Program-made: the position numbers and the translations under genes
Part shown: one piece after another, positions 78 through 26,071 of the stretch
Layout of the letters: the number at the start of each line of letters is the position of its first letter
Position numbering within the stretch: position 1 is the first letter of the stretch
Notes under the pieces: generated by a model
Database searches by the model: none
What the model was told of the DNA's origin: nothing
Seen by the model: only the letters and a program-made list of their open reading frames with translations
Assembly (NCBI RefSeq): GCF_003182195.1
Contig: NZ_QGTM01000001.1
Location: forward strand, 248,001 to 312,000
Reading direction: 5' to 3'
DNA from: Halomonas sp. A11-A
GTDB lineage: Bacteria; Pseudomonadota; Gammaproteobacteria; Pseudomonadales; Halomonadaceae
DNA: 64,000 nucleotides

Positions 78-1184
78 TCAGCGCCCCGACTTGACGCGGT
101 TCCAGACCCGGGTGCGCACGCGCTGCACGGCCAGCGGCTTCTCCTCGGCCACGTAGAGGTTGTCCATCACCTCCTGGTCCGGGTAGATGGCCGGGTCGTT
201 GAGGATGTCGGGATCGAGATACTCGTTGGCCGCCAGGTTGGGGTTGGCGTAGACCACGTACTCGGTGATCGCGGCGGCGATCTCGGGCTCCAGGATAAAG
301 TTGATGAAGGCGTGGGCGTTGTCAGGATTCGGCGCATCGGCGGGGATCGCCATCATGTCGAACCAGAGCGCGGCGCCCTCCTTGGGGATGCTGTAGCGGA
401 TGGTGAAGTCGCGGCCCGCCTCCTCGGCGCGGTCGGCGGCCTGGAAGATGTCGCCGGAGTAGCCCGCCGCCACGCAGATGTCGCCGTTGGCGAGATCGGT
501 GATGTAGCGCGAAGAGTGGAAGTAGGTGACGTTGTCGCGCATCGCGGCGATCAGGTCGCCGGCGGCTTCCAGGTCGGCACTCTCCTCGGAGAGCGGCGAG
601 AGCCCCAGGTAGGCCATGGCCGGCGAGAGCATCTCGTCGCCGGAGTCGAGCATGGAGATACCGCAGCCCCCCTCGTGCAGCGCGGTGGTGATCTCGGGGT
701 CGAAGAGCAGCGCCCAGGAGTCCACCGGGGCGTCGTCGCCGAGGATCGCAAGGACCCGCTCCTCGATGTAGCCGATGCCGTTGGTGCCCCACATGTAGGG
801 AATCGAGTAGCGGCTGCCCGGGTCGACGAACTCCAGGTCATCCATCAGCTCCGGGTTGAGGTTGGCCATGTTGGGCAGCTTGTCGTGATCGAGTTCCTGG
901 TAGACCCCGGCGCTGATGTGGCGGGTCAGGTAGTGGTTGGAGGGCACCACCACGTCATAGCCGGAACGGCCGGCGAGCAGCGCGGCGTCCAGCACCTCGT
1001 TGCTGTCGTAGACGTCGTAGATCACCTCGATGCCGGTGGCCTCGGTGAACTTCTCCAGGGTGTCCGGCGCGATGTAGTCCGACCAGTTGTAGATCCGTAC
1101 CTCGCCTGCCGCCTGGGCGGCGGCGGCCCCCAGCGCCAGCCCGGCGGCGGCTACGGCCAGTGAGAGTTGCTTGGCTTGCATCAT
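78..1184 (-). CDS. potF: Polyamine (putrescine-type) ABC transporter periplasmic binding protein
   Basis: Periplasmic solute-binding protein of the PotF/PotD/SpuD family, which captures putrescine or spermidine and delivers it to an ABC permease. About 25 N-terminal residues form an Ala-rich Sec signal peptide ending AQA-A. The mature start EVRIYNWSDYIAPDTLEKF is the family hallmark, and the length (368 aa) is near that of E. coli PotF. An in-frame GTG lies at 1193, but the ATG at 1184 follows a GAGGTG ribosome-binding site at good distance and gives the better signal peptide. It sits 105 bp downstream of puuA on the same strand, so uptake and gamma-glutamylation of putrescine are probably linked. 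No ABC ATPase or permease is visible; they could lie beyond the left edge. The exact polyamine specificity cannot be read from the sequence. Confidence 0.88.
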   Translation of the reverse strand: MMQAKQLSLAVAAAGLALGAAAAQAAGEVRIYNWSDYIAPDTLEKFTEATGIEVIYDVYDSNEVLDAALLAGRSGYDVVVPSNHYLTRHISAGVYQELDHDKLPNMANLNPELMDDLEFVDPGSRYSIPYMWGTNGIGYIEERVLAILGDDAPVDSWALLFDPEITTALHEGGCGISMLDSGDEMLSPAMAYLGLSPLSEESADLEAAGDLIAAMRDNVTYFHSSRYITDLANGDICVAAGYSGDIFQAADRAEEAGRDFTIRYSIPKEGAALWFDMMAIPADAPNPDNAHAFINFILEPEIAAAITEYVVYANPNLAANEYLDPDILNDPAIYPDQEVMDNLYVAEEKPLAVQRVRTRVWNRVKSGR

Positions 1185-18929: not shown

Positions 18930-19832
18930 ATGATGAGAATCCTGCTCTTTCTGGGCACCAACCTGGCCGTCATTATCGTCGCCAGCATCACCCTGCGGCT
19001 GCTGGGGGTGGAAGGCTACCTGCGCAGCCAAGGCATCAACTTCAACTCCCTGCTGATCTTCTGCTTCATCGTCGGTATGGCCGGCTCCATGATCTCGCTG
19101 TTCCTCTCCAAGTGGATGGCCAAGCGCAGCACCGGCACCGTGATCATCGAGACGCCCAGCAACGCCACCGAGAAGTGGCTGCTCGACACCGTGGAGGAGC
19201 TCTCCCGCCAGGCCGGCATCAAGACGCCCGAGGTGGGCATCTTCCCCGCCCAGCAGTCCAACGCCTTCGCCACCGGCTGGAACAAGAATGACGCCCTGGT
19301 GGCGGTCTCCGCCGGCCTGCTCAACCGCATGCGCCCCGAGGAGGTGCGCGCGGTGCTGGCCCACGAGATCGGCCACGTGGCCAACGGCGACATGGTGACC
19401 CTGGCGCTGATCCAGGGGGTAGTGAACACCTTCGTGATGTTCTTCGCCCGGGTGGTCGCCCACCTGGTGGACCAGTTCCTCAAGAGCCGCAGCGACGGCG
19501 CGGGGCTCGGCTTCATGGGCTACTTCGCGGTGGTGATCGTCGCCGAGATCGTCTTCGGCATCATCGCCTCGGCCATCGTCGCCTGGTTCTCGCGCTTCCG
19601 CGAGTACCGCGCCGACGCCGCCGGTGCCAAGCTCGCCGGCTCCGGCGCCATGATCAATGCCCTCGCCCGCCTCAAGGCGGAGACCGAGATGCCCGACCAG
19701 ATGCCGGACACCCTGCGCGCCATGGCCATCACCAAGGGCCAGACCCGCTCGCTGATGGAGCGCATGTTCGCCAGCCACCCGCCCTTGGATGACCGTATCC
19801 GTGCCCTGAAGGAAGCGGCCTACCGCCAGTAA
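18930..19832 (+). CDS. htpX: Membrane protease HtpX
   Basis: Zinc metalloprotease of the inner membrane that degrades misfolded membrane proteins. The HEIGH zinc motif ([12 protein letters not shown]) is present, with two N-terminal membrane segments (about 5-27 and 36-56) and two more around residues 150-210. The ATG at 18930 has a TTGGAG ribosome-binding site at good distance; the in-frame ATG at 18915 overlaps that site, so I chose the later one (300 aa). A perfect 8-bp hairpin at 18864-18881 lies in the leader and may be regulatory, though heat-shock or Cpx boxes could not be identified. Confidence 0.94.
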
Positions 19833-19855
19833 GCAAGCTTACGGAAAGCCACAAC

Positions 19856-19886
19856 GCAGAGGGCCCGCCATTGGCGGGCCCTCTGC
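19856..19886 (+). terminator. Hairpin terminator after htpX
   Basis: A perfect 14-bp GC-rich stem (19856-19869 with 19873-19886) with a 3-nt loop lies 23 bp after the htpX stop. The following T-tract is weak. It marks the end of core sequence before the accessory island. Confidence 0.75.
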
Positions 19887-19910
19887 TGTTGGTGATCTTA
19901 CCCAGCATTG

Positions 19911-20078
19911 GTGGACACCGGTCTAAGAGGTCATTCGGGCCTCGAAGGCCTCCGGGATGATCAGCCCAATCGCACTGTGCCGGCGTTGCCGGTTGTCGTC
20001 CAGTTCAATGTACTCGAACACCTGCTGCCGCATGGCCTCCCGGATCTCGAAGCGTTCGCCATGTAACGGGGTGTCCAC
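19911..20078 (-). mobile_element. Internally deleted IS3-family relic
   Basis: A 168-bp segment is bounded by inverted ends GTGGACACCGG (19911-19921) and CGGGGTGTCCAC (20067-20078). Read on the minus strand, 20061 down to the TAG at 19923-19925 encodes the last 40-odd residues of an IS3-type DDE transposase, including EYIELDDNRQRRHSAIGLI, with the RRHSALG-like signature of that family. All other transposase coding is gone, so it is a dead MITE-like remnant. It forms the left border of the cassette island. No target duplication was recognised. Confidence 0.72.
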
Positions 20079-20105
20079 TGCTGCTGGGCAAGATCAATCC
20101 ATTAT

Positions 20106-20175
20106 GGCTAACGCTTGGCTTTGCGGCGTACCGAAGCACAGCGTAGGTACGTCCGACAATAGCCACTTGTTAGGA
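20106..20175 (-). repeat. attC-like recombination site (after the R-M cassette)
   Basis: Read on the minus strand it starts TCCTAAC and ends AAGCGTTAGCC, with a long interrupted stem: TGGCTATTGTCGGACGTACC pairs with GGTACGCCGCAAAGCCA, leaving several extrahelical bases. The end boxes each differ from consensus in one or two positions. The symmetry is too long for chance and matches the attC design. Confidence 0.72.
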
Positions 20176-20182
20176 TTTTTCG

Positions 20183-20229
20183 TGGACATTTTGCACATAG
20201 GTAATATAATGCACATAGGTGCTATAGGT
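20183..20229 (+). promoter_or_regulatory. Promoter and repeated operator of the R-M operon
   Basis: A -35-like TGGACA (20183-20188) and a perfect TATAAT (20205-20210) are 16 bp apart. GCACATAGGT occurs at 20193-20202 and 20211-20220, an 18-bp period, with a degenerate third copy GCTATAGGT at 20221-20229. The repeats cover the spacer and the start-site region, as expected of an autoregulatory operator bound by the adjacent ribbon-helix-helix protein. Confidence 0.65.
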
Positions 20230-20245
20230 TACAAAGGGGATTGGA

Positions 20246-20428
20246 ATGTCGAAAAGTGAATCTGGTCGATTAGTTCTTGAGATTGACCCCGAATTAAAGC
20301 GAAAGCTCTATGCCGTATTGGCATTGGAACAAAAAACCTTAAAAGAATGGTTTATCGAATCTTCATCATCTTATGTAAAAGAAAGACTCAAGGCAGAGCT
20401 GGATAGCTTAGGGGGTGAAAAAGAATGA
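20246..20428 (+). CDS. Small ribbon-helix-helix-like regulator
   Basis: A 60-aa protein: RLVLEIDPELKRKLYAVLAL forms the beta-strand-helix start of a ribbon-helix-helix (CopG/Arc-like) DNA-binding fold, and QKTLKEWFIESSSSYVKE fits the second helix. Its stop overlaps the methyltransferase start by 4 bp (ATGA), so the two are translationally coupled. Its promoter carries repeated 10-bp boxes, so it probably plays the controller role in this restriction-modification system. The fold is assigned from pattern only; an antitoxin-like role is possible. Confidence 0.7.
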   Translation: MSKSESGRLVLEIDPELKRKLYAVLALEQKTLKEWFIESSSSYVKERLKAELDSLGGEKE

Positions 20429-22053
20429 AGTTCAAAGCAGATCAGACAACCCAAAAGCTCAGGGGCGGCTACTATACACCAAAACCCTTAGCAGACTATG
20501 TAACAAGCTGGGTTTGTGCAATTAACCCTGAGCACATTGCGGAGCCGAGTTGTGGAGATGGTGTTTTTCTGCAAAGCATTGCTGAGAAAACACTCAACAA
20601 AGACGTGCAGGTAACTGCTTATGAGCTATTCGATGTCGAAGCCGAGAAAGCCAGATCAAGAGCCGCCGAATCAGGGTTGAATAATTTTCAAGTAAATGAA
20701 GGTGACTTTTTAGATTGGGCCAATATTGCATTGTTAGAGAAAGCGCACCCTTTCGATGCTGTGGTTGGCAACCCTCCGTTCATCCGTTATCAGTTCCTTG
20801 AAAAGGAATTTCAGCTGAACACAGAACGGGTATTTCAAACACTCGGTCTTAAATTCACTAAACACACCAATGCATGGGTGCCTTTTATCCTGGCTTCCAT
20901 TTCATTGCTACGCCCAGGTGGTCGACTGGGTATGGTCATTCCATCTGAAATTGTGCATGTTTTGCACGCACAGTCATTGCGTACTTACCTTGGTACCGAA
21001 TGCAGCAAGGTTGTCATCATTGATCCTCAGGAAATTTGGTTCGAGGGCACGCTGCAAGGTGCGGTGATAATTATGGCCGAGAAGAAAATGGACTTTCATG
21101 AGCCGACCCAAGGAGTCGCCATTGAGAGCGTGCGCGGGTTTGACTTTCTTGAAACTGATCCGAATCAGCTCTTCGAAAACGCTGTCGGAATCAATGGTGA
21201 AACAGTCGCAGGGAAATGGACTAAGGCTCTGTTCTCCCCCGAAGATCTAGCTTTTTATAATGACATTTGTCGGCACGATGACGTCCATGTCTACAGTGAG
21301 ATTGCTACAGTAGATGTTGGGATCGTTACTGGTGCAAACAAATTTTTCTTAATTGATGATGAGACAGTAAAGCAACACAAGTTGCATAAATATGTACACC
21401 CAATGTTTGGTCGAAGCGAGCATTGTAAAGGCGTCATATATGACGAAGCACAACACCAGTCTAATAAAGATTCAGGAAACCCAACGAACTTTCTTCTGCT
21501 GGAGAATGAGCTCGACACCTACCCAGAGAACGTGAAGCACTACATCGCTCAGGGTGAACAGGAAGACCTACACAAGCGCTACAAATGCCGGATCCGTAAA
21601 CCATGGTACAAAGTGCCTTCTGTTTACGCTACTACCATTGGGATGCTTAAGCGTTGTCATGATGCTCCACGTTTAATTTCTAACCAAATTAGTGCATACA
21701 CTACGGATACCGCATACAGAATAAGACCTCTGGGTAATATTGATCCAGACACTCTCGTGTATTGCTTTATAAATCCAATCACCGCAATTTCTGCGGAGCT
21801 GAATGGGCGGTATTATGGTGGTGGCGTATTAGAGCTGGTGCCATCAGAAATTGAAAAATTATGGCTGCCTATTCCTGATGGAGTTGATACCCAACTGGCA
21901 CTGCTTGATGAAGAGATCCGAACCCTACCTATGGAAGAGGTGTTGCGCAGAAATGGCTATCGTGTGTTGCAGCATATCGGCTTGACTGAGCAAGATGTCG
22001 AAAGACTGGTTCAAATTTGGTCTGGGTTCCGAGACCGGAGACAAAGAAAATAA
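20425..22053 (+). CDS. N6-adenine DNA methyltransferase of a restriction-modification system
   Basis: A 542-aa SAM-dependent DNA methyltransferase. It begins with GGYYTPKPLADYV (residues 14-26), a segment typical of gamma-class adenine methylases, then the SAM motif AEPSCGDGVFLQSI (39-52) and the catalytic NPPF (116-119). The C-terminal half (about 290-500) is unlike the core and is presumably the target-recognition domain. It resembles the Eco57I/TaqI-type methylase group. It is translationally coupled to the small regulator and convergent with a PLD-fold nuclease within one cassette, so the role is most likely protective methylation. The recognition sequence cannot be predicted. Confidence 0.87.
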   Translation: MKFKADQTTQKLRGGYYTPKPLADYVTSWVCAINPEHIAEPSCGDGVFLQSIAEKTLNKDVQVTAYELFDVEAEKARSRAAESGLNNFQVNEGDFLDWANIALLEKAHPFDAVVGNPPFIRYQFLEKEFQLNTERVFQTLGLKFTKHTNAWVPFILASISLLRPGGRLGMVIPSEIVHVLHAQSLRTYLGTECSKVVIIDPQEIWFEGTLQGAVIIMAEKKMDFHEPTQGVAIESVRGFDFLETDPNQLFENAVGINGETVAGKWTKALFSPEDLAFYNDICRHDDVHVYSEIATVDVGIVTGANKFFLIDDETVKQHKLHKYVHPMFGRSEHCKGVIYDEAQHQSNKDSGNPTNFLLLENELDTYPENVKHYIAQGEQEDLHKRYKCRIRKPWYKVPSVYATTIGMLKRCHDAPRLISNQISAYTTDTAYRIRPLGNIDPDTLVYCFINPITAISAELNGRYYGGGVLELVPSEIEKLWLPIPDGVDTQLALLDEEIRTLPMEEVLRRNGYRVLQHIGLTEQDVERLVQIWSGFRDRRQRK

Positions 22054-22095
22054 TCAGGGAAATGAGGCGTTCAACTCACCTGACGCCTCTGATTA
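22051..22095. terminator. Bidirectional hairpin between methyltransferase and nuclease genes
   Basis: TAATCAG (22051-22057) pairs with CTGATTA (22089-22095), and an inner AGGCGTTCA/TGACGCCT stem closes on a 7-nt loop. It lies exactly between the convergent stop codons, so it probably terminates both transcripts. Confidence 0.65.
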
Positions 22096-22098
22096 CGT

Positions 22099-23247
22099 TT
22101 AGGTGATTTCTATCTGGTAGTTACTGCCTCCCAGGTGGTAAAGCGCCATGTGCTTACCCAAGAGTCCTCGCTTGGCAACAAGCGCTTTGGCAGCCCCCCA
22201 ATGTATCTGAGTCATTGCATTATTTTGAGCATACGTTTTTGTGTTTGTTTTAGAATTGTGGGTCAAGCGCAAATCGTAATTACCATTTGAGATACCATTA
22301 ATAATGATTTCAAAAGTTGCTGTTGCCCTCAATAGGTGTTTTTTACTGGGGCTGGCATCAGGTGTCCATGTGAGCCCTGCAAACACGCTATCCTTAAAAT
22401 AGTGCCGTTGATCAATTCCATCAAGCAGGCCTTTCTTTAAGTACATAGACCCAGTTGGATTGGTGTTACTGCCAGTAGGGATGCATAAATCTCTTTCCGT
22501 TAACTCTTTACTGGACCAAACCAAACCTGCGGCTGGAGCAACTTGGGAATTCTGCGGTTTTGGTGGCGCAACAGGAACAGGTTGCGGTACAGCCTGAGGC
22601 TTTCTTCGATGTATTGGTAAGGCAGGTGTGGCCACTGATTGCCCACCTGGGGACTTAGTGCCAATGACGGGAGCTTTTTTCTTTATGCTCTCATCTTCCA
22701 ACCGCCCTTCATTAACTAAGTCGTCTAACTGATTTCCAGCGGTGATCTGAAATACATTCAATGGATGCTGACCAATCAATGCTCTGAATGGGTCAATTAG
22801 CGCTGAAGCATACTGACTATCATCATGGCTAGTCAAATCAAGTTCAACTTTTGAACTAACCTCAACGTTGTCGCTAAGTCCACTCGCTGTCAGATTTGCA
22901 CTCCCCACGATAAACGTGGCTTGTTGAGCGCCAATTGCCGCGTAGAGTTTTGGATGGAAAAGACTTGCTTGCGTCCCCATGTCAATGACGTGGGGTTGCA
23001 CTCCGATTGCCAGGAGTTTAGCTAATGCTTGTTTAGAAGTTATTCCATTCGAAATACCAACAAAAACTTGAGCTATATTATTCTTTCTCTGAAGAGCCGT
23101 CTCAATTTTTGCTACTCCCGCTTCCCTCACAAATGCAACACTGATAAATAAGTTATCTGCCCACGGAGAATCAATTAAGTTGTTTATTGCATGCTCATGG
23201 TCATGATTAGGGGCAAGACCCTGTGTAAGAGCTGATACTTTTGCCAA
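22099..23247 (-). CDS. Phospholipase D-fold nuclease, probable restriction endonuclease
   Basis: A 382-aa protein with an N-terminal PLD-like nuclease domain (about 1-165) carrying one HKD motif: His98 and Lys100 in LFHPKLYAA, and GSANLT at 115-120. Single-HKD nucleases such as BfiI and Nuc act as dimers. A Pro/Gln-rich linker (about 205-245) leads to a C-terminal domain of about 130 residues that could bind DNA. The start is an unusual TTG at 23247, supported by AAAAAGGA seven bases upstream; a weak start would suit a toxic nuclease. It converges on the methyltransferase in the same cassette, and that pairing is the main reason to call it a restriction enzyme. A defence nuclease independent of the methylase is the alternative. 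Confidence 0.75.
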   Translation of the reverse strand: MAKVSALTQGLAPNHDHEHAINNLIDSPWADNLFISVAFVREAGVAKIETALQRKNNIAQVFVGISNGITSKQALAKLLAIGVQPHVIDMGTQASLFHPKLYAAIGAQQATFIVGSANLTASGLSDNVEVSSKVELDLTSHDDSQYASALIDPFRALIGQHPLNVFQITAGNQLDDLVNEGRLEDESIKKKAPVIGTKSPGGQSVATPALPIHRRKPQAVPQPVPVAPPKPQNSQVAPAAGLVWSSKELTERDLCIPTGSNTNPTGSMYLKKGLLDGIDQRHYFKDSVFAGLTWTPDASPSKKHLLRATATFEIIINGISNGNYDLRLTHNSKTNTKTYAQNNAMTQIHWGAAKALVAKRGLLGKHMALYHLGGSNYQIEIT

Positions 23248-23315
23248 CTATATATCCTTTTTAATCATGAAATTATTGTTTACGAGTAGTGGTGACCACG
23301 ATGAAGCGCTGATAA

Positions 23316-23393
23316 CCCTAACGCAGAGCGCACCGGTGGCCTTTGTGGAACGAAGCGGAGGAAAGGGCATCCGTGTGACGCGTATTGTTAAAT
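23316..23393 (-). repeat. attC-like recombination site (between nuclease cassettes)
   Basis: On the minus strand it begins ATTTAAC, an exact RYYYAAC box, and ends GCGTTAGGG, with one deviation from GTTRRRY. Internal arms GCGTCACACGG and CCACCGGTGCGC are complementary with a few bulged bases. It starts 4 bp after the stop codon of the DUF91-like gene, as in a normal cassette. Confidence 0.72.
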
Positions 23394-23396
23394 TCT

Positions 23397-24146
23397 TCAC
23401 TCAAGTCGAGCCTCACGCAGACTGACGGATAGCTCATATTCGAATAACTGAACGCCCTGAACCCCAGAGCAAGCGAGTAACAAATCCTCTGAAATATGCC
23501 GAGCCACGATAATGCCTCGAACCGACTGCCCAGGTTCCGTCTGGTTTTTCCTGATCCAGGCCATGTACCGCAGCAACTGACCGACAACCCTGTCATACCC
23601 CTTCGACACTTTTAACTCTATGACAACGTAGTTGCCCTCCGAATCCGTGGCCAGAATATCAATAAATCTTCCACCCACTGGAAACTCAAGACCATTTATC
23701 CCTTCATCCTCAAACAGAGTAAGGCCTGACTCTATAAGGTGAAGGTTCCTTGCGAGGTAATTCTGCAAGTCTTTTTCATACGCGAACTCCGGACTACCTT
23801 CCTCTGCTAACTCTTGAACTTCTTCCTGTACTGCCTGTTCGGCATCATCCCCTGGGTAAATTGGCGCTGGGTCATTCTGTGGTCGATATAGGCGAAAATG
23901 TTTGGGGTCCACTTGAAAGAACAGGTCATCCTCTCCCGGCTTGGCCCCATAATGTACCCGGCTTTTCGAGTTAACTGACATTCTAAGCAGATGGGCAGCA
24001 ATCGTTCCGTCTTTGATTTTTGGATAGTTTTCCCTGAACCAAGAACGGACTCGGTCACGCGAAATCACGGTATCCGGCTTCAAATCTATGTCACGCACCA
24101 TGTCATGCATAAGGGCTCGAACGGGTTTGTCATAAAGTGATGCCAT
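23397..24146 (-). CDS. NucS/DUF91-like PDDEXK nuclease carried on a gene cassette
   Basis: A 249-aa protein. The C-terminal half is an EndoNucS/DUF91-type PDDEXK nuclease domain: GGRFIDILATD with Asp163, then VVIELKVSKG with Glu177-x-Lys179, then RVVGQLLRYMAWIRK. The N-terminal 90 residues (RDRVRSWFRENYPKIKDGTI...) look like a winged-helix-type module also found with restriction-like endonucleases. The gene fills a single cassette, starting 13 bp after one attC and ending 4 bp before the next, with no promoter of its own visible. A role in DNA restriction or repair is inferred from the fold only. Confidence 0.75.
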   Translation of the reverse strand: MASLYDKPVRALMHDMVRDIDLKPDTVISRDRVRSWFRENYPKIKDGTIAAHLLRMSVNSKSRVHYGAKPGEDDLFFQVDPKHFRLYRPQNDPAPIYPGDDAEQAVQEEVQELAEEGSPEFAYEKDLQNYLARNLHLIESGLTLFEDEGINGLEFPVGGRFIDILATDSEGNYVVIELKVSKGYDRVVGQLLRYMAWIRKNQTEPGQSVRGIIVARHISEDLLLACSGVQGVQLFEYELSVSLREARLE

Positions 24147-24159
24147 GGAACCTCTTAGA

Positions 24160-24244
24160 ATTTAACGCCTTTGTTTAGCGGCGCCACGTCAGGGGCGTCC
24201 GGTGGAGGCCGCAGGCCGGAACAAACTACAACAGTTTGTTAGGT
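24160..24244 (-). repeat. attC recombination site (best-preserved copy)
   Basis: On the minus strand the end boxes are ACCTAAC and GTTAAAT, both exact fits to RYYYAAC and GTTRRRY. The inner arms TTTGTTCCGGC and GCCGCTAAACAAA pair with unpaired bases left over. The first R box overlaps the stop codon of the upstream 96-aa gene. Confidence 0.8.
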
Positions 24245-24529
24245 GCCAAACGCCCATGCGGAGACGCCAGCTATAACAAGCCCTAAAAGTAAGCCAGTAA
24301 ATAGGTTCCACGCCCTGATCTTACTCTCGTAACGCCTGTTCTCTTTTTGCTCCAGCTTCGCTATCTGAACCTTCATCACAGCCGTGAAGGTTGGATTCGT
24401 GCCACGAATGCTTAGCCGGGCCTCGGCAGCTGCGAGTTCCTGAGCATCAAGAGTGTCTATTTCGCTCGGATCGCTACTCGCCAAGTACCGCTGAAACATC
24501 TTTACTATTTCATGGTCTGGCACAGACAT
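24239..24529 (-). CDS. Small tail-anchored cassette protein
   Basis: A 96-aa protein of unknown function and the first gene of the cassette cluster. I chose the ATG at 24529, which has GAGG eight bases upstream; an in-frame GTG at 24550 lies inside the recombination half-site. Residues 1-70 are hydrophilic and probably helical (EIDTLDAQELAAAEARLS, VMKVQIAKLEQKENRR), and the last 20 residues form one membrane segment (LFTGLLLGLVIAGVSAWAFG). It is probably anchored by its C-terminus with the bulk in the cytoplasm. The stop codon lies inside attC, as is usual for cassettes. Confidence 0.6.
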   Translation of the reverse strand: MSVPDHEIVKMFQRYLASSDPSEIDTLDAQELAAAEARLSIRGTNPTFTAVMKVQIAKLEQKENRRYESKIRAWNLFTGLLLGLVIAGVSAWAFGT

Positions 24530-24567
24530 TCTCAAAGCCTCGTTTCGCACCTAACAGGTATTAGACA

Positions 24568-24625
24568 GCGCGCTCGTTTATTGACTTGAACGCGCGTGCT
24601 CGTTCAAGTCAATAAACGAGCGTGC
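24568..24625. repeat. Near-perfect 25-bp palindrome beside the cassette cluster
   Basis: Arms 24568-24592 and 24601-24625 match in 24 of 25 positions, core CTCGTTTATTGACTTGAACG, around an 8-nt loop. It lies 13 bp outside the half-site where the first cassette begins, at the place an attI site would occupy. No transposase or IS ends were recognised around it. Confidence 0.85.
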
Positions 24626-24895
24626 AAATTTCCCACCAAGTGACTGATTTTCCTGAAAATTAAGAATAATTTGACTGCATAAGAAGGATTCGCGTGCCTG
24701 CTCGCTCGGCCATTCAGGCACGCTACCGCCCACTGCATGTTGACATGACACCTGCCATCCATGCGGCGTAATGCGCCTTCTTGATGACGCTGGCGCCGTC
24801 GCGGCTAGCTTGCCGCATCTCAGCGTATGCCGGGGCCGTCATGGTTGCAAAGGGCAGTTAGGATGCGAAAGCCCTGCGCTCACCCTGGTGAGCTA
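24626..24895. other. Gene-free stretch between palindrome and pdxB
   Basis: With the palindrome this makes a gap of about 345 bp without a gene. The left half is AT-rich and the right half returns to host composition. The only structures seen are a GCTCACC/GGTGAGC hairpin just downstream of the pdxB stop (24878-24893), which may end pdxB transcripts, and a lone GTTAGGAT at 24863. No ORF with coding character was found. Confidence 0.6.
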
Positions 24896-26071
24896 TCACC
24901 CCTTGCCGTTATCGCCCTGCAGCAGCCGGAAGCCCCCTCCCGCCAGCAGCGCGGCCAGGGCGGCGTCGGGCTCGGCCAGGGCGACCTCCAGGGTGGCGAA
25001 CTCGCGGCGCAGGGGGTAGTGGGCGCGACAGGCATCGAAGCCCTTCGCCATGCCCTGGCGGCGGCTTTCGCGCAGCAGGCTGTCGTGGTCGCGGCGCACG
25101 TCATGGACGGCACGCAGGCAGAGCCGCAGCGCCTCCTCGGCGGCGAGGCCCGGGCCGAGTTCCAGGCGGCGCAGCGGCGGCGGGGGCAGCAGGTCGGCAA
25201 GGGAGACTCTGGCAGGCAGGCCCAGCTCGCGGCACAGTGCCCGGTAGATCTGATGGGTGCCGCGCCGCTTGCCGTCCAGGCTGTGGCCAGCGATATGTGG
25301 CGTGGCGATCTCGGCGAGGTCCCGCAGGGCGCCGTCGATGGCGGGCTCGTGCTCCCAGACATCGAGTACCGCGCTGATATCACCCTCCCCGGCCAGCCGC
25401 TGGCGCAGCGCCGCACCGTCCACGCAGTCGCCGCGACCGGCATTGAGCAGCACGGTGCCGGGCGCGAGTTCGGCAATCGCCCGGGCGCCCAGCAGGTGGT
25501 GGGTGGCATGGGGCCCCTCGCGCACTAGGGGGGTGTGCAGGCAGAGCACGTCGCACTCGTCGATCAGCGTCTCGAGGTCGACGAAGTCGGCCCTCTCCTT
25601 CTCCACATCCCCTGCCTCGACCCGGGGCGGGTCGCAGGCCAGGCAGTCGATCCCCATGGCGGCCAGGCGCCCCAGCAGCCGCCCGCCCACGTTGCCGGCG
25701 CCCACCACCCCCACCCGCCGCTCGGCGAGGCGCCAGCCCTGGCGCTCGGCCAGGGTGGCGAGGCTGCCGAGCACATGATCCACCACCGCCTCGGCGTTGC
25801 AGCCCGGGGCACTGGCGAAGGCGATACCGCGCTCGGCGAGCAGCGCGGTCTCGATATGGTCGGTGCCGATGGTGCAGGTGCCCACGAAGCGCAGCCGGTT
25901 CGCTCGGGCCAGCAGCGCTTCGTCTACCCGGGTGATGGAGCGCACCACCAGGGCGTCCACGTTGACCAGGTCATCGGCGGTGATCTCCCGCCCGGGCCGG
26001 CGGACAAGCTCGCCCAGCGAACCGAAGCAGGCCTCGGCGGCGGGGACGTTAGCATCGACAAGGATTCGCAT
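24896..26071 (-). CDS. pdxB: Erythronate-4-phosphate dehydrogenase
   Basis: NAD-dependent 2-hydroxyacid dehydrogenase of the DXP-dependent pyridoxal-phosphate pathway, oxidising 4-phosphoerythronate. The start MRILVDANVPAAEACFGSLG is typical of PdxB, followed by GTCTIGTDHIE, the Rossmann motif VGVVGAGNVGGRLLGRL and the active-site segment TPHIAGHSLDGKRRGTHQIY. Length is 391 aa, against about 380 in E. coli, with the extra PdxB C-terminal dimerisation domain present. Confidence 0.95.
   Translation of the reverse strand: MRILVDANVPAAEACFGSLGELVRRPGREITADDLVNVDALVVRSITRVDEALLARANRLRFVGTCTIGTDHIETALLAERGIAFASAPGCNAEAVVDHVLGSLATLAERQGWRLAERRVGVVGAGNVGGRLLGRLAAMGIDCLACDPPRVEAGDVEKERADFVDLETLIDECDVLCLHTPLVREGPHATHHLLGARAIAELAPGTVLLNAGRGDCVDGAALRQRLAGEGDISAVLDVWEHEPAIDGALRDLAEIATPHIAGHSLDGKRRGTHQIYRALCRELGLPARVSLADLLPPPPLRRLELGPGLAAEEALRLCLRAVHDVRRDHDSLLRESRRQGMAKGFDACRAHYPLRREFATLEVALAEPDAALAALLAGGGFRLLQGDNGKG

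Follow-up and report, generated by a model that had tools for sequence, protein, structure and literature searches.

A probable Type II restriction-modification integron cassette of Halomonas sp. A11-A in which an M.Eco57I-type methylase is paired with a predicted PLD-B3 nuclease

Introduction

An M.Eco57I-type methylase gene, overlapped by a small regulator gene and facing a convergent nuclease gene, is found in restriction-modification (R-M) loci that appear to be of the Eco57I/AcuI type. For M.Eco57I, a degenerate CTNNAG specificity with methylation of both strands has been reported, with partner change confined to the two central bases (PMC3874165); Eco57I reads CTGAAG and BpmI reads CTGGAG (PMC3874165), and CTGAAG is also the target of Cac824II, which shares 44% identity with AcuI and 46% with Eco57I (PMC4736252). 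The same gene layout was found in a stretch of 64,000 nucleotides of Halomonas sp. A11-A (contig NZ_QGTM01000001.1, positions 248,001 to 312,000), here called the window. In the window the bifunctional enzyme of 997-998 aa is replaced by a nuclease of 382 aa with predicted phospholipase D (PLD) and B3 domains, which shows no significant sequence match to it. The locus is in all likelihood a complete Type II R-M system carried as one integron cassette (Table 1).

BfiI and BmrI, PLD-type Type IIS enzymes with the target ACTGGG, likewise combine an N-terminal single-HKD PLD domain and a C-terminal B3 domain in one chain, but identity to the window nuclease in structural alignments is 14-20% and the target of the latter is expected to differ. 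The pairing with a single M.Eco57I-type methylase is presumably a further difference. NgoAVII, NgoFVII and CglI (GCSGC or GCCGC) share the PLD and B3 arrangement (4rct), but the cassette is without a helicase-like gene and the RE_NgoFVII match of its nuclease is below cut-off. Nucleases of the PLD-B3 kind are known (PMC4081073).

R-M systems inside integron cassettes are also known (PMC9892861, PMC4176335, PMC12444791, PMC12409362), and other defence systems have been described as cassettes (Darracq 2025, Getz 2025 and Kieffer 2025, through PMC12409362 and PMC12444791). One open reading frame per cassette is typical, and more are found occasionally (PMC12409362); restriction systems of Types II and IV that are carried by integrons are reported to be size-reduced (PMC12409362, on Darracq 2025). 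The cassette of the window differs from these in having three genes, a regulator among them, and its own promoter within 3.2 kb; this compact, probably self-regulated R-M cassette joins a growing list of integron-borne defences. An initial annotation of the window, made from the sequence without database searches, had called such a cassette rare. The word has to be qualified in view of the R-M cassettes already reported and of a 4.2-kb Gabija cassette in the same host.

R-M integron cassettes, PLD-B3 nucleases and M.Eco57I-type methylases are each known; their combination and the nuclease exchange described below appear new, neither having been seen in the literature searched. In that literature, which left out REBASE and most subscription papers, a PLD nuclease was nowhere seen as the partner of an Eco57I-type methylase. 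A question that still stands is how a bacterium can gain a new restriction enzyme and yet spare its own DNA; an exchange-tolerant degenerate methylase would be a concrete route. One kind of methylase together with its regulator gene occurs with both unrelated nuclease partners, and does so in several lineages.

Table 1. Features of the R-M cassette and its surroundings (window coordinates)
Feature	Position	Strand	Basis or remarks
Integron gene cassette, 3,210 bp, minus orientation	20112-23321	-	bounded by the G/TT points of two attC
attC of the R-M cassette	20106-20175	-	model R2, 43.6 bits, E 5.1e-9
Promoter TGGACA-16-TATAAT of the regulator-methylase operon	20183-20210	+	11/12 consensus matches
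Two direct operator copies, 18 bp apart	20193-20202, 20211-20220	+	repeat of GCACATAGGT
Small regulator, 60 aa, probably ribbon-helix-helix	20246-20428	+	weak ParD match
M.Eco57I-type N6-adenine methyltransferase, 542 aa	20425-22053	+	PF22837, PADLOC MTase_II
Hairpin GAGGCGT/ACGCCTC separating the convergent genes	22054-22098	.	fold score; also in L005
Nuclease, 382 aa	22099-23247	-	PLD and B3 domains
Nuclease domains	residues 1-188; 189-239; 240-382		single-HKD PLD; low-confidence linker; B3-type DNA-recognition
attC of the neighbouring cassette	23316-23393	-	model R2, 41.2 bits, E 2.2e-8; R' box is the other boundary of the R-M cassette
Third attC, beyond the DUF7669/NucS_C cassette	24160-24244	-	model R2, 26.7 bits, E 1.3e-4
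IS3-type transposase fragment	19923-20078	-	rve_2, 24.4 bits
Neighbouring cassette	23322-24165
DUF7669 + NucS_C protein	23397-24146	-	candidate-defence model PDC-S02, 72.6 bits
Open frame, 103 aa	24239-24550	-	past the third attC

Results and discussion

Genes of the cassette

The methylase was matched to the M.Eco57I C-terminal family PF22837 with 325.6 bits (cut-off 27), to the PADLOC Type II methylase model MTase_II with 691 bits, and above cut-off also to PF02384 (54.8 bits) and PF07669 (52.9 bits). The motifs EPxCGDG and NPP are invariant across 20 methylase rows, as in a gamma-type methyltransferase core with motifs I and IV. These matches and motifs bear out the adenine methyltransferase that the initial annotation had placed in the cassette. 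Compared with the E. coli homologue, the window methylase is 56% identical in the C-terminal domain and 63% in the core. The C-terminal domain presumably reads the target; the two values fit a kept specificity and are no proof of it.

By its models, the nuclease is predicted to consist of a BfiI-like PLD domain and a B3 DNA-recognition domain. That a convergent nuclease of single-HKD PLD fold faces the methylase is upheld by PF13091 (PLDc_2) and by the sequence and structure matches to BfiI. BfiI is the best sequence match of known structure (E 5.1e-5) and the top Foldseek match of the nuclease model (E 1.8e-13), and over the PLD part it was aligned by VIA-align with Z 20.5 and a root-mean-square deviation (rmsd) of 2.6 across 176 residues. 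Across 13 nuclease rows H98, K100, N118 and E129 do not vary; they align with H105, K107, N125 and E136, the catalytic residues of BfiI.

The VIA run on the whole nuclease model covered mainly the PLD part, and the C-terminal 145 residues were hence modelled alone, with a predicted local distance difference test score (pLDDT) of 92.9. All top 24 VIA rows of this model are B3-type (Z 8.9-5.4, next row 3.8), among them plant FUS3, VAL1, LEC2 and ARFs as well as BfiI, EcoRII, LlaJI, UbaLAI and NgoAVII; the ARF, VRN1 and LlaJI chains were taken to hold B3-type domains. Single B3 Z values of 8-9 are middling, and the weight lies in all top rows sharing one fold. When the B3 parts of 13 members were searched against Pfam, none was recognised better than by chance (the best match, to an unrelated family, had E 0.027). 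Comparison of the nuclease with a Type IIG enzyme gave nothing better than E 0.9, and no Type IIG enzyme was found in the cassette, where the methylase itself gave the only matches to the IIG queries, all of them short. Two other assignments of the nuclease were rejected, namely to the NgoFVII family (RE_NgoFVII, 17.6 bits, cut-off 23.8) and to DrmC of DISARM (NCBIfam DrmC, 17.3 bits, cut-off 133).

The label ribbon-helix-helix (RHH) of the regulator rests on a ParD Pfam match of 15.8 bits that is below the cut-off of 27.3 (E 0.019). The regulator shares 85% identity with its counterpart in L005, 79% with that in L006 and, across 52 aa, 58% with that in the E. coli locus L010 (handles of this form, for loci and genomes, are our own), and its gene overlaps that of the methylase by four bases. 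The promoter of this operon is the best among 5 promoter-like sites, a number of sites that is not above that of shuffles (mean 6.7). Repeated operators at the operon, proposed earlier, are present as two copies of GCACATAGGT; the first falls between the promoter hexamers and the second lies directly 3' of the second hexamer. The half-site ACATA/TATGT occurs in 10/10 homologous 70-bp upstream regions, in 28 copies, where 1000 shuffles gave 7.8 on average and never more than 16; it was chosen after the data had been seen and is also the commonest 5-mer of the ten regions. These include the upstream regions of L010 and L016, where the partner is a Type IIG enzyme, so that regulator and operator accompany the methylase whichever nuclease is present. 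The RHH-like protein would repress its own operon by binding the repeated half-sites over the promoter.

Two details of the initial annotation stood in part. The TTG start of the nuclease gene is real, but it carries no argument for methylation before cutting, because the codon is not conserved: the homologous gene begins with ATG in L005 and L007, and with GTG in L006. An internal terminator had been placed between the convergent genes; a hairpin is present there and recurs in L005, but its z-scores are modest (-1.80 on one strand, -2.32 on the other), it has no T-tract, and it is not among the 6 terminator-like sites found.

Cassette boundaries

A covariance model of attC sites (R2) was built from 9 training sites of the host genus, none of them taken from the window: 7 were from other species and 2 from the integrase-linked array of the host on another contig. 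The automatic structure of R2 comprised 4 pairs only, and a 12-pair structure was set by hand from the fold of one training attC; its E-values are rough, the calibration having been short. A search of the 64-kb window at E<=5 gave exactly 3 attC, all on the minus strand. The two same-orientation attC that had been said to bound the cassette were in this way recovered by a window-free model, with coordinates that agree. The attC cut point is G/TT, and by these points the cassette runs from 23321 to 20112 (20112-23322 in the initial annotation). The nuclease gene has the orientation of the cassette, and the regulator-methylase operon is antiparallel to the attC. An earlier scan by motif plus hairpin did not discriminate (36 hits of >=18 pairs in 200 island shuffles) and was superseded by R2.

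No integrase adjoins the array; the sole intI over cut-off in the host genome is on the other contig, C25. The array is a cluster of three attC sites without an integrase, and not a complete integron with adjacent integrase and attI.

Homologous loci, linkage and selection

Homologues were counted if they were distinct, covered at least 80% of the nuclease and came from the nuclease-led searches, the window being excluded. This gave 13 loci (L005, L006, L007, L012, L013, L031, L032, L033, G475, G899, G848, G525 and G550) with nucleases 25-86% identical to that of the window. A methylase homologue (32-92% identity) lies beside the nuclease in each of them, convergent in 12 and in tandem in one (L032). 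The initial annotation was to be given up if homologues of the nuclease occurred mostly without an adjacent methylase; what was found is a methylase next door in 13/13 full-length homologues.

Dropped from the count were L008 (cut by a contig edge, methylase adjacent), L009 (a 53-aa end fragment, no methylase seen), L014 (a protein with the B3 part only, next to which lie a methylase homologue and a IIG enzyme) and seven hits wholly or mainly to the PLD part (H3, H4, H5, H7, L034, L035 and L191/G1142). Among the latter, other annotated methylases adjoin H3 and H5, and no methylase is annotated at H4 and H7; methylase-like frames were noted in L191 by eye and by a weak IIG match, a weak match of IIG type lies about 1.8 kb away in L034, and searches of L035 with the query methylase and IIG gave no match. 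Loci found by the methylase were also excluded: L018 (a remnant), L037, L039 and L048 (full nuclease beside the methylase), L038 and L040 (B3 part only) and L041 (no nuclease). L036, L042 and L052 duplicate the contigs of L031, L033 and L032, respectively.

The system is rare, with 2/398 genomes of a phylum sample, host included, and 1/97 relatives, which is the host itself. Phage records gave no match to nuclease or methylase. R2 at E<=1 found no attC in 8/13 loci (L005, L006, L007, L116, L117, L118, L012 and L013), where a genus-built model may miss distant attC; the other five loci were outside this search. In Roseobacter, IS66 lies inside the nuclease gene (L013:1495-5101), and in Sphingobium (L018:4501-8001) IS1380 lies inside the methylase gene and only a nuclease remnant is left.

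The Pseudoalteromonas copy L005 is homologous over 20246-23246, from start codon to start codon, with 82% DNA identity. Ratios of nonsynonymous to synonymous substitution (dN/dS) against L005 were roughly 0.03-0.04 in the methylase gene, rising to 0.06-0.07 in the nuclease gene and 0.08-0.13 in that of the regulator; dS was up to 1.2 and near saturation, which makes these values rough. On this computation, all three genes have been under purifying selection since the window and Pseudoalteromonas copies diverged.

Beside methylase homologues, free-standing B3-type proteins (about 145 aa) were seen at L014:3995-4429 (with a Type IIG enzyme, on a Lysinibacillus plasmid), L031:4860-5300 (by a full PLD-B3 nuclease) and L040:6587-7033 (alone, on a viral contig).

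Exchange of the nuclease partner

Methylase matches were obtained in 62 plasmid records, with the surroundings of 15 inspected, and in 45 E. coli genomes, with two inspected; the statements below hold among the matches listed. In the rows examined, the closest methylases to the trio of the window, L005 and L006 come from E. coli (60% identity) and Acinetobacter (58%). At the two E. coli loci and on one Acinetobacter plasmid, a homologous regulator-methylase pair is convergent to a Type IIG enzyme of 997-998 aa, and the E. coli enzyme scored 1606 bits against one PADLOC IIG model. By length and family, the E. coli/Acinetobacter enzymes (L010, L016) are probably of Eco57I/AcuI type.

The methylase tree of 30 rows contains a seven-row clade with the PLD-partnered window, L005, L006 and L031 and the IIG-partnered L010, L016 and L017 (support 100/100). 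L032, PLD-partnered and in tandem, falls within a four-row clade that is otherwise IIG-partnered (support 98/96). The approximately unbiased (AU) test rejects a single clade both for IIG-partnered (p 2e-5) and for PLD-partnered methylases (p 5e-82). By the starred branches, the labels must have changed no fewer than 3 and 5 times (3 and 6 in the first tree), where a change may be a gain or a loss. In the second tree L048 was dropped for its long branch, and L189 and L190 were added. Unrelated nucleases thus appear to have been exchanged on one methylase/regulator chassis.

It is conceivable, at somewhat less than even chances, that this chassis is permissive: degenerate CTNNAG methylation would let any nuclease targeting within the set plug in without death of the host, even one of unrelated fold. 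The IIG and PLD-B3 partners would then have been changed at least 3 times, with the changes falling in two methylase lineages far apart, and it would be the compact PLD form that came to an integron cassette. The PLD version of the locus takes 3.2 kb as compared with 4.9 kb for L010. A nuclease of 382 aa in place of a 998-aa enzyme fits the size reduction seen in integrons; selection for size is only a suggestion, because no attC was found at any of the 8 homologous loci searched.

Proposed function and alternatives

The R-M reading is well supported, with the activities predicted. Judged from the sequence, the RHH-like protein would keep the regulator-methylase promoter repressed via the repeated half-sites. 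The methylase would, as in its family, mark adenines on both strands of a degenerate CTNNAG-type site. The convergent nuclease would bind an asymmetric site with its B3 domain and cut nearby, the PLD active site being formed by two subunits and metal-free as in BfiI. We consider the chances about even that the methylase marks CTNNAG-type sites and that the nuclease cuts at one of them, CTGAAG in the first place or another CTNNAG; the target is predicted within this set because M.Eco57I is reported to methylate CTNNAG. It is predicted that the cassette methylase blocks cutting by AcuI/Eco57I at CTGAAG, and that the PLD nuclease is metal-independent with its target inside CTNNAG.

Several points weigh against a complete R-M system with an exchanged nuclease. 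The activities of methylase and nuclease are both predictions. The PF13091 score of 27.4 bits is only just above the cut-off of 27, the PLD match to RE_NgoFVII is sub-threshold, and the Foldseek E-values of the B3 part are weak (best 1.2e-3). Whole-chain Foldseek comparison with BfiI gave TM-scores of 0.32-0.34 and an rmsd of 18.5; the TM-scores are low because the two domains sit differently in the nuclease model and in BfiI. The Eco57I/AcuI type of the E. coli and Acinetobacter enzymes is deduced from length and family. The AU groups were defined with the first tree already in view, and long branches are flagged in the second. Three viral contigs from IMG/VR (L038, L040 and L041) carry the methylase without an intact nuclease, as expected for anti-restriction methylases.

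The cassette might instead be mainly a selfish addiction module that holds the cassette or the array in place, with defence secondary. This is rather unlikely as the main role and would be compatible with an R-M system. R-M systems have been linked with the stabilising of superintegrons and of mobile elements (PMC4176335, PMC3874152), and an RHH-like autoregulator is reminiscent of toxin-antitoxin control (PMC3874152), but an array of three attC with no adjacent integrase leaves little to stabilise.

We regard it as improbable that the locus is a decaying remnant, with the cassette silent or the nuclease inactive and only gene history to be seen. No integrase promoter is nearby, the IS3-type transposase fragment adjoins, the nuclease starts with TTG, and relatives show decay, with IS66 in the nuclease gene of L013 and the nuclease of L018 mostly gone; but all three frames are open with low dN/dS in each, the catalytic residues are kept, and the cassette has its own 11/12 promoter.

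It is very improbable that the methylase is active while the nuclease is no restriction enzyme blocked by modification, but a PLD effector that travels with the methylase and either depends on methylation (Type IV-like) or senses something else. SauUSI, a modification-dependent enzyme that its PDB title calls an ATP-dependent restriction endonuclease, is the second match both by structure (Z 20.2 over the PLD domain) and by sequence (E 8.7e-4), and weak PADLOC matches of the nuclease are to DrmC, ZacB and a Type IV model, but the nuclease is without a helicase part, its C-terminal domain resembles the B3 specificity domain of BfiI, EcoRII and NgoAVII, and cutting at the marks of the neighbouring methylase would kill the host.

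Genomic setting and neighbouring cassettes

The island sits between htpX and a pdxB-like gene. This gap was surveyed in 60 genomes of the genus with an htpX match, from which 30 loci were kept, that of the host among them. In 22 of the 29 non-host loci pdxB is inside the 1.5-kb htpX flank, and 2 of the remaining 7 are short contigs. A single large other gene separates htpX and pdxB in G008 and G009, and pdxB was not found in the available stretch by htpX in G027 and G046. In G007, the closest relative by HtpX, the gap holds several extra genes, some of them insertion-sequence-like by eye, and two attC of 64.1 and 33.1 bits (L151, 997-6478); G008, G009, G027 and G046 were outside the attC search. 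With attC in the gap of both G007 and the host, the gap has taken cassettes at least twice.

An Rfam scan of 19000-25000 gave 4 matches at E<=1, none of them at the family gathering score. The transposase fragment lies beside the R-M cassette. The neighbouring cassette encodes the DUF7669 + NucS_C protein, and the open frame past the third attC, with no family above cut-off, has a hydrophobic C-terminal stretch by eye. The integrase-linked array of the host (L119:8188-12444, corresponding to G000:C25:32187-36443) contains the two-gene Gabija cassette, large for a cassette, with scores of 984 bits for GajA and 786 bits for GajB; its flanking attC came from the motif scan and were later used in building R2.

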